Below, one piece after another: positions 20,436-32,986 of a stretch of DNA of 43,406 bases. The notes beneath the pieces were generated by a model, which did not search any database, was not told the origin of the DNA, and was given only the letters and a program-made list of their open reading frames with translations. The position numbers and the translations under genes were made by a program. Numbering within the stretch: the first letter of the stretch is position 1; the number at the start of each line of letters is the position of its first letter. This DNA comes from Lachnospiraceae bacterium (lineage in GTDB: Bacteria; Bacillota; Clostridia; Lachnospirales; Lachnospiraceae), in contig JAFUMV010000058.1 of the NCBI GenBank assembly GCA_017482485.1, positions 1-43,406 of the forward strand. Reading direction: 5' to 3'.

Positions 20436-20472
20436 AATAGCTGCGGACATCTGCTTTTGACGGTAAAATTTG

Positions 20473-20513
20473 AAAGCGCCCCGAAACGATGTGAAAGAGT
20501 TTCGGGGCGCTTT
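20473..20513. terminator. Bidirectional terminator between convergent genes
   Basis: AAAGCGCCCCGAAAC (20473-20487) and GTTTCGGGGCGCTTT (20499-20513) form a perfect 15-bp stem with an 11-base loop, with A and T ends. It serves the binding protein gene on the plus strand and the NhaC-family gene on the minus strand. Confidence 0.9.
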
Positions 20514-20540
20514 ACTAATGGGTGTGTCTTTTTTACAATG

Positions 20541-22160
20541 TCATTCTTTTGGCGGTATCTTCCTGATGAGAAGAAGTGCTGCCAGCATCAACATAAGACC
20601 GATCGCAAGACAGATAATGGCGTTCTGGACAAACCCTGCGATGATATAAGTGACAAAGGAAACCGCAGCGCATACAAGCGCGTAAGGCAGCTGCGTGGAA
20701 ACATGATTCACATGATCGCACTGGGCGCCGGCACTGGCCATGATTGTAGTGTCGGAAATCGGGGAACAGTGATCGCCGCAGACAGCGCCGGCCATACATG
20801 CGGAGATGGAAATGATCATCAGGGTTGGGTTGGTATTTTCAAAAACAGCAACAACAATCGGAATCAGGATGCCGAAGGTGCCCCAGGAAGTTCCGGTAGC
20901 AAATGCCAGGAAACAGCCAACCAGGAAAATGATTGCGGGGAGCATGCTCATCAGTCCGCCGGCAGCATTTTTCATAACACCTTCCACAAATTCTGCCGCT
21001 CCGAGGCTGTCTGTCATCGCTTTCAAAGTCCATGCAAAAGTCAGGATCAGGATTGCGGGAACCATGGCCTTAAAGCCTTCCGGAATGCAGCTCATGATCT
21101 CGTGGAAGTTCAATACTTTGCGGAGCAGATACAGAACGATGGTGACCAGCAGTCCGAAAAAGCCGCCCAGCGCGAGCCCTACGGATGCATCGCTTTGAGA
21201 AAAGCTTGTGATAAAATCCACGCCTTCAAAAAATCCGCCGGTATAAATCATGCCGATGACACAGCATACGATCAGGCTGATGATGGGAATCACAAGATCG
21301 ATAACTCTGCCGTTCGTGGTGATCTTATCTGCATGTTCCATGCCTGCATAGGGACGCTCCTGGGTGGTAAAAAGATCCCCTTTTTCGGCAGCATTTTTTT
21401 CATGACGGGCCATGGGACCGAACTCCACTTTCAGGATAACCATGGCAATCATCATGACGATTGTCAAAAGTGCGTAGTAGTTATAGGGAATGGCGCGGAT
21501 AAACAGGGAGAATCCGTCTTCGCCCTCTACAAAGCCTGTGACCGCGGCGGCCCAGGAGGATATCGGAGCAATGATGCAAATCGGTGCGGCGGTGGCATCG
21601 ATCAGATAGGACAGTTTTGCACGGGATACCTTGTGCTTATCGGTGACAGGACGCATGACGCTGCCCACAGTCAGGCAGTTGAAGTAGTCATCGATGAAAA
21701 TAAGTACGCCCAGCGCGATGGTGGCCAGCTGTGCACCCACACGGGTCTTGATTTTGCCGGAAGCCCAGCGGCCAAAAGCAGCGGAACCGCCGGCCTTATT
21801 CATCAGTGCAACGATCGCACCGAGGATGACAAGGAAAATCAGGATGCCCACATTGTAGCTGTCTGAAAGAACTGCAAGAAATCCGTCCTCAAACATGTGA
21901 GATACTGTTCCTTCAAAGGAAAAGCCGGAGTAAAACAGACCGCTTACAAAAATTCCCAAAAACAGGGAACTGTACACTTCCTTGGTGATCAGCGCAAGAG
22001 CGATTGCAATAATCGGAGGAATCAGCGCCCAGAAAGTGGCATACATGGAAGGCACATATTCAGTTTCCCCTTCCGATGCAAAAGCGGTCATGGAACAAAA
22101 AAGCACGCAAAGTGCAATGACAGGCACAGCAGTTTTTATTCTGCGTATCAAGATTTGCAT
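20541..22160 (-). CDS. NhaC-family transporter, predicted lysine transporter (LysW-like)
   Basis: A 539-residue membrane protein with a signal-like first helix and about eleven to twelve further helices. It has NhaC-family hallmarks: FIDDYFNCLTVGSVMRPVTD in the first half and CGDHCSPISDTTI in the second. Automatic annotation would say Na+/H+ antiporter. However, the gene is headed by a lysine riboswitch (22221-22410), and NhaC-type proteins under L-box control have been predicted to be lysine transporters (LysW). Sodium- or proton-coupled lysine movement is therefore the better guess; direction is not proved, although lysine-repressed genes normally make or import lysine. The start ATG at 22158-22160 has GAGAGGGG before it, and this site lies within the riboswitch terminator. 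Confidence 0.88.
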   Translation of the reverse strand: MQILIRRIKTAVPVIALCVLFCSMTAFASEGETEYVPSMYATFWALIPPIIAIALALITKEVYSSLFLGIFVSGLFYSGFSFEGTVSHMFEDGFLAVLSDSYNVGILIFLVILGAIVALMNKAGGSAAFGRWASGKIKTRVGAQLATIALGVLIFIDDYFNCLTVGSVMRPVTDKHKVSRAKLSYLIDATAAPICIIAPISSWAAAVTGFVEGEDGFSLFIRAIPYNYYALLTIVMMIAMVILKVEFGPMARHEKNAAEKGDLFTTQERPYAGMEHADKITTNGRVIDLVIPIISLIVCCVIGMIYTGGFFEGVDFITSFSQSDASVGLALGGFFGLLVTIVLYLLRKVLNFHEIMSCIPEGFKAMVPAILILTFAWTLKAMTDSLGAAEFVEGVMKNAAGGLMSMLPAIIFLVGCFLAFATGTSWGTFGILIPIVVAVFENTNPTLMIISISACMAGAVCGDHCSPISDTTIMASAGAQCDHVNHVSTQLPYALVCAAVSFVTYIIAGFVQNAIICLAIGLMLMLAALLLIRKIPPKE

Positions 22161-30564: not shown

Positions 30565-32469
30565 ATGGAACGGAACATCACTGTTTTAAAGGGGAAGCCG
30601 TATCCGCTTGGAATGACGGTTACGGGGAAGCGTGAATGTAATCTGGCAGCCGTGCTGCAGGGAAAAGAAGAGTGCGGGGTAGTTCTGTACCCAAAAGACG
30701 GAAGTGATCAGATTCGCATTCCTTTTGGAAATGAGAATAAAGTCGGGAATATTTATTGCATGAAGCTTTCCGGGATTCGGGTCAGAAATTTTGCATATAA
30801 TTTTTATGCCGGAGAAGAGATCATCACGGATCCTTATGCAAAGCAGATTCTTGGCAATGAAAAATGGGGAGAGAAAGTGGATCCTGAGCTCTGTGCCGAA
30901 GACCTGTCAGAGGATTTTGACTGGGAAGAGGACACACCGCTGATGACACCGCTTTGCGACAGCATCATTTATCAGCTGCATGTGAGAGGCTTTACAAAGC
31001 ATCCTTCTTCCAGGGTGAAGAAAAAGGGCACCTTTGCCGGAATTGCGGAGAAGATCCCTTATCTGAAGACGCTGGGTATTACAGCGGTGGAACTGATGCC
31101 TGCATACGAATTTACAGAACTGGAAAGTGCAAAGCGAAGCGTTTTCGGCATGGCGGAGGCAAAGAACCGCTATATGGAGCTTCCTGCAGAATCAAAGCCG
31201 CCCAGAATCAATTACTGGGGCTTTAAAAAGGGATATTATTTTGCGCCGAAAGCTTCCTATAGCAGTACGAAATCGCCCTCTTTGGAATTCAAATGCATGG
31301 TGAAGGCTTTGCATGAAAGCGGTATCGAAGTGATCATGCAGTTTTATTTTCCAAAGGAAATCAGGCAGGGATTTATTCTGGAAGTGCTCAAATACTGGGT
31401 TTATGAATATCATATTGACGGCGTGCATCTTCTGGGAGACAGTATTCCCACCACACTTGTGGCAACATATCCGCTGTTATCCAATACAAAGCTGTTTTAC
31501 TATGGTTTTAACTGTCATGAGATTTATGGTTCTTCTGACGTGCCGGCTTATAAGAATCTGGCCTGTTATCAGGATGATTTTCTGTATGACATGCGCCGTT
31601 ACTTAAAAGGTGATGAGGACATGCTCGGGGCAGTTTTGGCACAGCTGAAGAAAAATCCGGCGCAGACCGGTGTTGTGAATTATATTGCCAATTATGAGGG
31701 ATTTACGCTGGCTGATCTGGTTTGCTATGAGCGCAAGCACAATGAAGCGAACGGAGAAGAGGACAGAGACGGGAATCCCTACAATGCCAGCTGGAACTGC
31801 GGTGTGGAAGGCAAAAGCAAAAAGAAAACGATTGAAGCGCTGCGCGCAAAGCAGATGCGCAATGCGATGATGCTTCTTTTATTCGCACAGGGAACGCCCA
31901 TGATTGTGGCGGGAGATGAATTCGGTCACTCCAAGGACGGCAATAATAACAGCTGGTGTCAGGATAATGAAGTGAACTGGCTTAACTGGAATCAGACAAG
32001 GACCAACAAAGAATTTCTGGACTTTGTGAAAGCGGCAATTACCCTGCGCAGAAGTCATCCGATTCTGCATAAACCGGATGAACTGACGATGATGGATTTT
32101 ATCGCCTGCGGTTTCCCTGATCTGTCCTGGCATGACCGTGAGGCCTGGAGACTTTCCATTGACAGAATCAGCAGGGAAGCCGGTGTCATGTACTGTGGAT
32201 GTTATGCCAAAGTGGACAGGCAGATGGACGATGACTTTTTCTACATCGCTTATAATATGCACTGGGAAGAAAAGGAACTGGCACTGCCCCAGCTGAAGGG
32301 TGGTCTGCACTGGGAAAAGGTGATGGACTCTGCTGACGCATCGACTGCGTCTGATGGGGAAATATTAGAAAAGAAGATTATGGTACCTGCCCGCAGCATA
32401 CAGATTTTAAAAAGCTTCGGCAAACCGGTGAAGGAAGGAAAAAAGGTTGAAGGCATTACAGCATTTTAA
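30565..32469 (+). CDS. GH13 debranching-enzyme-like protein with all catalytic motifs lost (putative pseudoenzyme)
   Basis: 634 residues with the plan of GlgX/isoamylase-type debranching enzymes: an N-terminal CBM48-like domain (GKPYPLG, 10-16), a barrel starting IIYQLHVRGFTKH (134-146), and the family segment GDEFGHSKDGNNNSWCQDNE (450-469). The four catalytic regions are replaced. Region I DVVxNH is IMQFYF (257-262). Region II GFRxD is GVHLL (286-290), so the nucleophile Asp is Leu290. Region III AEPWD is YYGFN (312-316), losing the acid/base Glu. Region IV AHDGFTL is NYEGFTL (376-382), losing HD. The frame is uninterrupted, so it is not a decayed gene in the usual sense. A glycan-binding or regulatory role is inference. 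The ATG at 30565 lacks a well-spaced ribosome binding site. Confidence 0.85.
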   Translation: MERNITVLKGKPYPLGMTVTGKRECNLAAVLQGKEECGVVLYPKDGSDQIRIPFGNENKVGNIYCMKLSGIRVRNFAYNFYAGEEIITDPYAKQILGNEKWGEKVDPELCAEDLSEDFDWEEDTPLMTPLCDSIIYQLHVRGFTKHPSSRVKKKGTFAGIAEKIPYLKTLGITAVELMPAYEFTELESAKRSVFGMAEAKNRYMELPAESKPPRINYWGFKKGYYFAPKASYSSTKSPSLEFKCMVKALHESGIEVIMQFYFPKEIRQGFILEVLKYWVYEYHIDGVHLLGDSIPTTLVATYPLLSNTKLFYYGFNCHEIYGSSDVPAYKNLACYQDDFLYDMRRYLKGDEDMLGAVLAQLKKNPAQTGVVNYIANYEGFTLADLVCYERKHNEANGEEDRDGNPYNASWNCGVEGKSKKKTIEALRAKQMRNAMMLLLFAQGTPMIVAGDEFGHSKDGNNNSWCQDNEVNWLNWNQTRTNKEFLDFVKAAITLRRSHPILHKPDELTMMDFIACGFPDLSWHDREAWRLSIDRISREAGVMYCGCYAKVDRQMDDDFFYIAYNMHWEEKELALPQLKGGLHWEKVMDSADASTASDGEILEKKIMVPARSIQILKSFGKPVKEGKKVEGITAF

Positions 32470-32986
32470 AACGATTACCCATCATAAAATACTGGTCATG
32501 AAAGGATGCTTTGCCGTAGGACTCTACTGGCAGGGTCTCTGCCATGATTTATCCAAATATTCCTGGAGTGAATTTAAGGTAGGCGCAAAATACTTCCAGG
32601 GCGACAGAAGCCCGAATAATGCGGAAAGAGAAGATATCGGCTATTCCAGCGCCTGGCTGCATCATAAAGGGCGCAATAAGCACCATTACGAATACTGGGT
32701 CGATTACAGCACAAAGGCAGTTTCCGGTGGGATAGCTCCGGTTCCGATGCCGAAGAAATACGTGGTGGAAATGCTGATGGACCGCATTGCCGCTTCCAAG
32801 ATATACCGGGGCAGCGCTTATACGGACAGCGATCCGCTGAAGTATTATGAAAGCGGCAAAGAAATGCCTTTGATTCATCCGGAGACGAAGGCACTTCTGG
32901 AAAAGCTGCTTCACCTGCTGGCACAAAAAGGAGAAGCTTACACCTTTGCCTATGTACGAAGAAAGGTGCTGGGAAAGAAAAAATAA
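32447..32986 (+). CDS. DUF5662 family protein
   Basis: A 179-residue soluble protein matching the DUF5662 family by its CHDLSKYSWSEF segment. Several His/Asp residues are spaced as in HD-type metal hydrolases: His12-His13, His33-Asp34, His72-His73 and His79-His80. This suggests a metal site, but activity is unknown. It starts at a TTG at 32447, inside the end of the GH13-like gene (23-base overlap), with GGAAGG eight bases before. Translation is therefore probably coupled to the GH13-like protein. A good terminator follows at 33033. Confidence 0.8.
   Translation: MKALQHFKTITHHKILVMKGCFAVGLYWQGLCHDLSKYSWSEFKVGAKYFQGDRSPNNAEREDIGYSSAWLHHKGRNKHHYEYWVDYSTKAVSGGIAPVPMPKKYVVEMLMDRIAASKIYRGSAYTDSDPLKYYESGKEMPLIHPETKALLEKLLHLLAQKGEAYTFAYVRRKVLGKKK

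Follow-up and report, generated by a model that had tools for sequence, protein, structure and literature searches.

The question raised by this locus is whether a gene that resembles a glycogen debranching enzyme still encodes one. The window, by which we mean the whole stretch of DNA analysed, is 43,406 nucleotides of a Lachnospiraceae bacterium (assembly GCA_017482485.1, contig JAFUMV010000058.1, positions 1 to 43,406 of the forward strand). The gene is a single plus-strand frame running from an ATG at 30565 to the stop at 32469 with no internal stops, and it encodes a protein of 634 amino acids. The top family model is TIGR02100 (GlgX), although at 315.1 bits the protein scores below that model's cut-off of 640.9. 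It is almost certain that the product is a real, apparently ancient and selected pseudoenzyme.

The fold is that of the GlgX and isoamylase enzymes, which were the best solved relatives in a sequence search. The AlphaFold2 model is of high confidence and gives a complete fold, and a VIA-align structural comparison of the model found a three-domain GH13 fold nearest to isoamylases (one chain is listed per PDB entry in that comparison, hence ISA2 chains were unranked). The closest known systems are the GlgX and isoamylase enzymes of GH13_11, represented by Streptomyces venezuelae GlgX (7u39), E. coli GlgX (2wsk) and plant ISA1 (4j7r/9lfn). Identity to real GlgX is 31.8% across residues 12-589. 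The same genome carries a second GlgX (L002) that is canonical and lies on a different contig (G000:C18). Active-site columns were assigned by alignment to L002 and 34 further active relatives, and gave the following features.

30565..32469, plus strand: GlgX/isoamylase-fold protein of 634 amino acids, predicted to be catalytically dead (frame, family score, alignment, model)
31348..31368, plus strand: junction, residues 262-268, where the tail of region I and the ~41 residues after it are gone (alignment)
31432..31434, plus strand: Leu290, in place of the region II nucleophile Asp (alignment)
31501..31503, plus strand: Tyr313, in place of the region III acid/base Glu (alignment)
31693..31698, plus strand: Tyr377-Glu378, at the columns of the region IV His-Asp (alignment)

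In region I, the DxxxNH of L002 aligns with Q259...P263-K264 of the pseudoenzyme. The loop window that follows (L002 254-295) holds 1 residue in 123 pseudoenzymes, as against 42-43 in the 35 active relatives, and the alignments contain a second, shorter deletion after the nucleophile column. An active GlgX or isoamylase requires the catalytic Asp/Glu/Asp and the region I Asn-His; at these places the protein has L290, Y313 and an E378 without the preceding His. What separates it from an active GlgX is the loss of the nucleophile, the acid/base and the Asn-His pair of region I, together with the ~41 residues that come next. As read from the alignment, the loss of catalysis is a matter of point replacements plus deletion of the ~41-residue loop.

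The same loss recurs throughout the family, a large group of gut bacteria. Named prokaryote genomes were scanned with a 30-member alignment, and the best 80 of at least 596 relatives were taken; most of the named relatives among those 80 are Lachnospiraceae. With the loci from the family, genus and phylum samples, and the window's own protein included, 159 proteins were aligned and 158 counted. The one left out is L126, the second locus of a split gene in genome G300. L003 was excluded as a duplicate of L002, L004 (pullulanase-like and more distant) was used only in the first alignment to L002, and L145 and L157 are partial sequences. The 158 proteins form two classes with no intermediates, 123 loop-deleted and 35 canonical. 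The full triad is absent from all 123 loop-deleted proteins, with none of the three residues kept in 88, one in 32 and two in 3; L048, L053 and L146 retain the Glu and Asp with the nucleophile gone. The nucleophile Asp is absent in 122 of the 123, and the sole protein with Asp at that column, L152, is missing the loop and the other two triad residues. The 35 loop-containing proteins have the standard catalytic residues (L081 is gapped at region IV). At 90% identity the 123 reduce to 122 clusters and the 35 to 34, so the loop-deleted proteins are not near-copies of each other. In a tree of 84 + 27 of the 158 rows, which is without plant sequences and whose root is not established, one change separates pseudoenzymes from active proteins with SH-aLRT 100. 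A single origin therefore fits, and the loss of catalysis was apparently one early event in the family. There is also a sub-group of short pseudoenzymes of ~560-600 amino acids (L153, L154, L156, L148, L132, L158, L155, L062, L071, L103 and similar sequences). In these the region II Arg column is occupied by Ile or Val and the nucleophile column by Asn, and some are gapped at region III. This is perhaps a second stage of degeneration. At the other extreme of length, L059 and L090, the longest two of the 84 pseudoenzymes, carry extended tails which by eye seem basic or of low complexity and so offered no domain fusion as a hint of a partner.

The pseudoenzyme is under purifying selection. The ratio of nonsynonymous to synonymous substitution rates (dN/dS, by NG86) spans 0.098-0.194 over the 12 genus pairs that yielded a value; these are few pairs (14 seen of 45 in total, 2 of the 14 without an estimate and 31 of the 45 not included), and dS is near saturation in most. 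The two least saturated pairs gave 0.174 and 0.098. For the active paralogue, 9 of 10 genus pairs fall at 0.072-0.216. Among 13 genus genomes, the gene is full-length in 10 and split across two frames of one contig in G300, and it was not found in G301 (95% complete) or G306 (68% complete).

The original prediction, made from the letters of the window, was of an intact 634-codon frame encoding a selected pseudoenzyme, with four catalytic regions replaced and the fold otherwise preserved. The frame is as it described, the alignment with the 35 active proteins places the replacements where it put them, and the model and structural comparison agree on the fold. Selection is borne out by a loss that is family-wide and on one tree branch, under purifying selection and with the fold kept. 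Its suggested check, that the same replacements recur across Lachnospiraceae with low dN/dS, came out in its favour as to the broken triad and the dN/dS, with the qualification that the replacing residues vary. It had warned that the label of debranching enzyme would be wrong, and the recurring catalytic loss supports that warning. Its statement that exactly the active-site residues were selectively lost was right about those residues but too narrow, since the loop is gone too.

What the protein has retained involves the following features.

31216..31224, plus strand: W218-G219-F220, aromatic contacts kept, equivalent to W222/Y224 of S. venezuelae GlgX (alignment)
31735..31989, plus strand: near-invariant segment, residues 391-475 (KHNEANGEEDRDG ... 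GDEFGHSKDGNNNSWCQDNEVNWLNW), with E398, N462 and W464 (37/45 positions kept)
30580..30852, plus strand: N-terminal beta-sandwich, residues 6-96, at the CBM48 position (AlphaFold2 secondary structure)
32122..32418, plus strand: C-terminal beta-sandwich, residues 520-618 (AlphaFold2 model; weak isoamylase C-terminal Pfam matches)

We scored the positions whose conservation among the 35 active proteins is 90% or higher, and called them kept if the same residue occurs in at least 80% of pseudoenzymes. Of these GlgX-invariant positions, the catalytic segment keeps 7/88, or 7/58 once deleted columns are dropped. The segment just after region IV (L002 442-545) keeps 37/45, the first part of the barrel 25/36, the N-terminal domain 6/17 and the C-terminal domain 8/10. 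In the available text on the S. venezuelae GlgX-acarbose complex, the -1 contacts are W222, Y224, H271, D342, E378, W380 and H449, and other sugars are contacted by R212, E470, N534 and Y536 (PMC9530166). We mapped these contacts by alignment, the chain numbering being the paper's + 3. E470, N534 and Y536 fall on E398, N462 and W464 of the pseudoenzyme. Across the 123 pseudoenzymes the first of these columns is Glu in 120, the second Asn in 121, and the third either Tyr or Trp, again in 121. The W218 column is Trp in 123/123 and the F220 column Tyr or Phe in 123/123. The other -1 contacts are kept in far fewer: H271 in 1/123, D342 in 1/123, E378 in 22/123, W380 in 24/123 and H449 in 25/123. 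The E398 column is Glu in 18/35 and Trp in 17/35 of the active relatives, and is thus steadier in the pseudoenzymes. The Trp in those 17 active proteins may mean altered specificity in some of them.

The retained outer sugar contacts fit glucan binding, and the pseudoenzyme likely still holds alpha-glucan chains without cutting them. The explanation that we judge best, and hold with moderate confidence, is that it is a GlgX paralogue of the GH13_11 fold that has lost catalysis, has been retained by selection, and binds glycogen non-catalytically. It would bind glycogen chains or branch points in the cytoplasm through its retained subsites. Once bound it would leave the polymer uncut and serve as a scaffold, a protector or a regulator, and so may affect access to the polymer of the synthase, branching enzyme, phosphorylase, pullulanase and, where present, GlgX.

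The distribution of the gene was followed in 299 Lachnospiraceae genomes, the window's own included and some of them incomplete metagenome-assembled genomes. A match to the window's pseudoenzyme (P0001) occurs in 253 of the 299, and 236 pass the E<1e-60 by which we defined a carrier. We read 58 of the 236 by sequence (30 + 28) and found the deletion and the broken triad in all 58; the remaining carriers are called by E-value only. An active GlgX reaches 1.6e-63 with this query (L127), and the E-value rule alone is unsafe near the line; the weakest accepted carrier (G084, 1.2e-65) is one of those read by sequence (L159), and the next carrier is at 1.3e-70. A few matches contain stop codons, such as the one in G036 with two. 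Active GlgX, defined as a match to L002 at E<1e-100 with few of the 100 read by sequence, is found in 100/299. Of the 299 genomes, 93 have both, 143 have the pseudoenzyme without GlgX, 7 have GlgX without the pseudoenzyme (among them G048, with an unclear fragment) and 56 have neither. The pseudoenzyme is therefore found in more than twice as many sampled genomes as active GlgX. Among the matches listed for 358 genomes of the phylum, in which the same order and class are sparsely sampled, no pseudoenzyme appears outside Lachnospiraceae; the sole other strong match, in G555, is an active GlgX. Glycogen synthase, GlgA, is present in 289/299, so glycogen is probably made in these genomes. The 56 genomes with neither GlgX nor pseudoenzyme by these rules are found despite this near-universal GlgA.

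Several points weigh against glycogen binding as the explanation. Both the binding and the physiological role rest on sequence and a predicted model. Of the seven -1 contacts, all but the aromatics W222 and Y224 are missing from at least some pseudoenzymes, and any binding could be weak. R212 lies in a disordered loop and could not be mapped. Folding, instead of glucan binding, may be the reason why the kept segment is so constant. The CBM48-like N-terminus of the original prediction has its beta-sandwich in the model but is weak by sequence, which does not identify a CBM48 in this protein: PF02922 is not listed for it at E<1 (program filters remove most matches >0.1), and was matched in 11/54 family members at E<0.1. 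At 55 pseudoenzyme loci, no recurring neighbour looked like a glycogen gene when representative sequences were judged by eye. Finally, near-universal GlgA makes its co-occurrence with the pseudoenzyme poorly informative.

The alternative that survives best, though we think it unlikely, is a non-catalytic subunit like plant ISA2, forming a heteromer with GlgX (or with pullulanase if there is no GlgX) and setting its stability or specificity. ISA2 is described as a GH13_11 paralogue without catalysis that green plants and algae have kept from their common ancestor onward, and its persistence under selection is said there to be not understood (PMC12510319). In Arabidopsis, ISA1 and ISA2 are both required for their complex to be stable and active (PMC3787081). 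The likeness is real in that both proteins have lost the nucleophile and most catalytic residues (for ISA2, from the same portion of PMC12510319), and both are non-catalytic GH13_11 paralogues kept over long evolution. It is also the case that the pseudoenzyme occurs in 93 of the 100 active-GlgX genomes (odds ratio 5.2, p 1e-5, uncorrected for kinship). However, active GlgX is absent at E<1e-100 in 143 of the 236 carriers, so that a catalytic partner gene was not found in them, and in the window's genome the two genes are on separate contigs. An obligate GlgX subunit in the style of ISA2 is weakened by those 143. The pseudoenzyme family profile scores ISA1 at 436 and GlgX at 407 bits, far higher than ISA2 at 230, so by profile score ISA2 is not the nearest solved relative. 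ISA2 has an extra N-terminal beta-sandwich before its CBM48, according to the available text of PMC12510319, while the pseudoenzyme model has one sandwich (~6-96) and then the barrel. Plant ISA2 is the closest known kind of protein, yet the pseudoenzyme family does not belong to it. The original prediction had offered three roles for a protein that binds glycogen or starch, namely sensor, scaffold or subunit. The outer contacts fit the binding it supposed, and its simplest version, a partner of GlgX, is contradicted by 143/236.

Improbable, but next in order, is a repurposed enzyme, in which the barrel would have acquired a new active site for a different reaction. TIM barrels are frequently repurposed, which counts in its favour, and at the region I Asp column 121/123 have Gln, Glu or Asp, while at the region II Arg column 77/123 have His. 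Against this, no new invariant polar residue has appeared at the former catalytic columns; the nucleophile column itself is N in 35, M in 24, L in 20, I in 13, K in 11, V in 8 and others in the rest of the 123. Only 9 positions are conserved in the pseudoenzymes yet not in the active enzymes (84 vs 27 rows).

We give little credence to a nucleotide-sensing regulator built on the GlgX fold, for which the precedent is S. venezuelae GlgX bound to cyclic di-GMP (c-di-GMP). Its site is an ExR(X)6R motif plus R31 in the N-terminal domain, and the same available text reports that c-di-GMP binding was undetected for E. coli GlgX and a second Streptomyces GlgX (PMC9530166). In the pseudoenzyme the residues E47, R49, R56 and R31 are I52, F54, G61 and E36, a match made by hand where the domain aligns poorly. 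The motif and R31 are absent from its N-terminal domain, and a c-di-GMP sensor was rejected.

The gene neighbourhood suggests a further alternative, a role tied not to glycogen but to the protein encoded next door.

32447..32986, plus strand: DUF5662 gene, with a 23-base overlap with the end of the pseudoenzyme gene (PF18907, E 9.8e-39)

In 44/79 eligible pseudoenzyme loci the next same-strand gene is DUF5662, often with an overlap; in 11 more it is found at another place in the retrieved DNA. DUF5662 is found in 246/299 family genomes, mostly as a single match, and its presence is weakly associated with the pseudoenzyme: 201/236 carriers vs 45/63 non-carriers (odds ratio 2.3, p 0.015, uncorrected for kinship). 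However, it is present in those 45 non-carriers and was not found in 35/236 carriers. A functional pair was rejected on the ground that adjacency is common and presence weakly associated, yet there is no dependence. If there is any dependence it is a weak one; the association seems to be chiefly one of position, and a role of this sort is very improbable. The literature searched does not name DUF5662; an HDLSK stretch in the protein presumably recalls HD-type metal sites. Upstream of the pseudoenzyme gene are a UvrD-like helicase gene and another that we take to be GltX-like, with a divergent DUF1292 gene nearby. In 9 loci a gene for a membrane-protein-like product, which we presume to resemble TraX, directly follows the pseudoenzyme gene (e.g., L058 11766-12402); in L058 it sits between the pseudoenzyme gene and DUF5662. 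Elsewhere in the window, long frames at 20457-21866 (plus strand) and 20541-22160 (minus strand) overlap on opposite strands, and presumably one is a real gene.

The last alternative, a decaying pseudogene or annotation artefact, can claim the missing catalytic residues, the drift of their replacements among lineages, the two-frame copy in G300 and the few matches with stops, but is scarcely credible given a dN/dS of about 0.1-0.2, full-length frames in 10/13 genus genomes, a single branch on the tree and a high-confidence predicted fold.

Two further known systems bear comparison. The ectodomains of rBAT and 4F2hc, heavy subunits of membrane amino-acid transporters, are called "fake or orphan alpha-glucosidases" of the alpha-amylase family in the available text of PMC8537225. 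The pseudoenzyme is likewise a protein of that family, but no signal or membrane segment was seen in it by eye, without a prediction program. GlgD is related to an enzyme, and has a fold, unlike those of the GlgX-type pseudoenzyme, and its partner is GlgC, whereas the pseudoenzyme has no known partner. It is a regulatory companion of a glycogen enzyme in some bacteria, according to the accessible part of PMC10395257. No description of a bacterial non-catalytic GlgX was found among the matches listed in the literature searched, which lacks most subscription papers.

The finding bears on how glycogen metabolism is read from genomes. If judged only by similarity, carriers without active GlgX (143/299) would be credited with a debranching enzyme. 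The criteria of one published gut-commensal census were E<1e-5, at least 20% identity and at least half of the length (PMC10395257). The pseudoenzyme would clear that bar against real GlgX with its 31.8% across residues 12-589. It would also be a second, apparently independent case of a non-catalytic isoamylase, in bacteria and often without the catalytic sister, and this would make the question of why ISA2 is retained testable in a simple system. Tentatively, and with somewhat more doubt than belief, we suggest that a family of bacteria may, independently of plants, have evolved a non-catalytic relative of the debranching enzyme whose dedicated task is to bind glycogen and to govern its architecture or its breakdown; what looks like a "debranching enzyme" of this type in most carriers would then be a glycogen-binding protein and not an enzyme.
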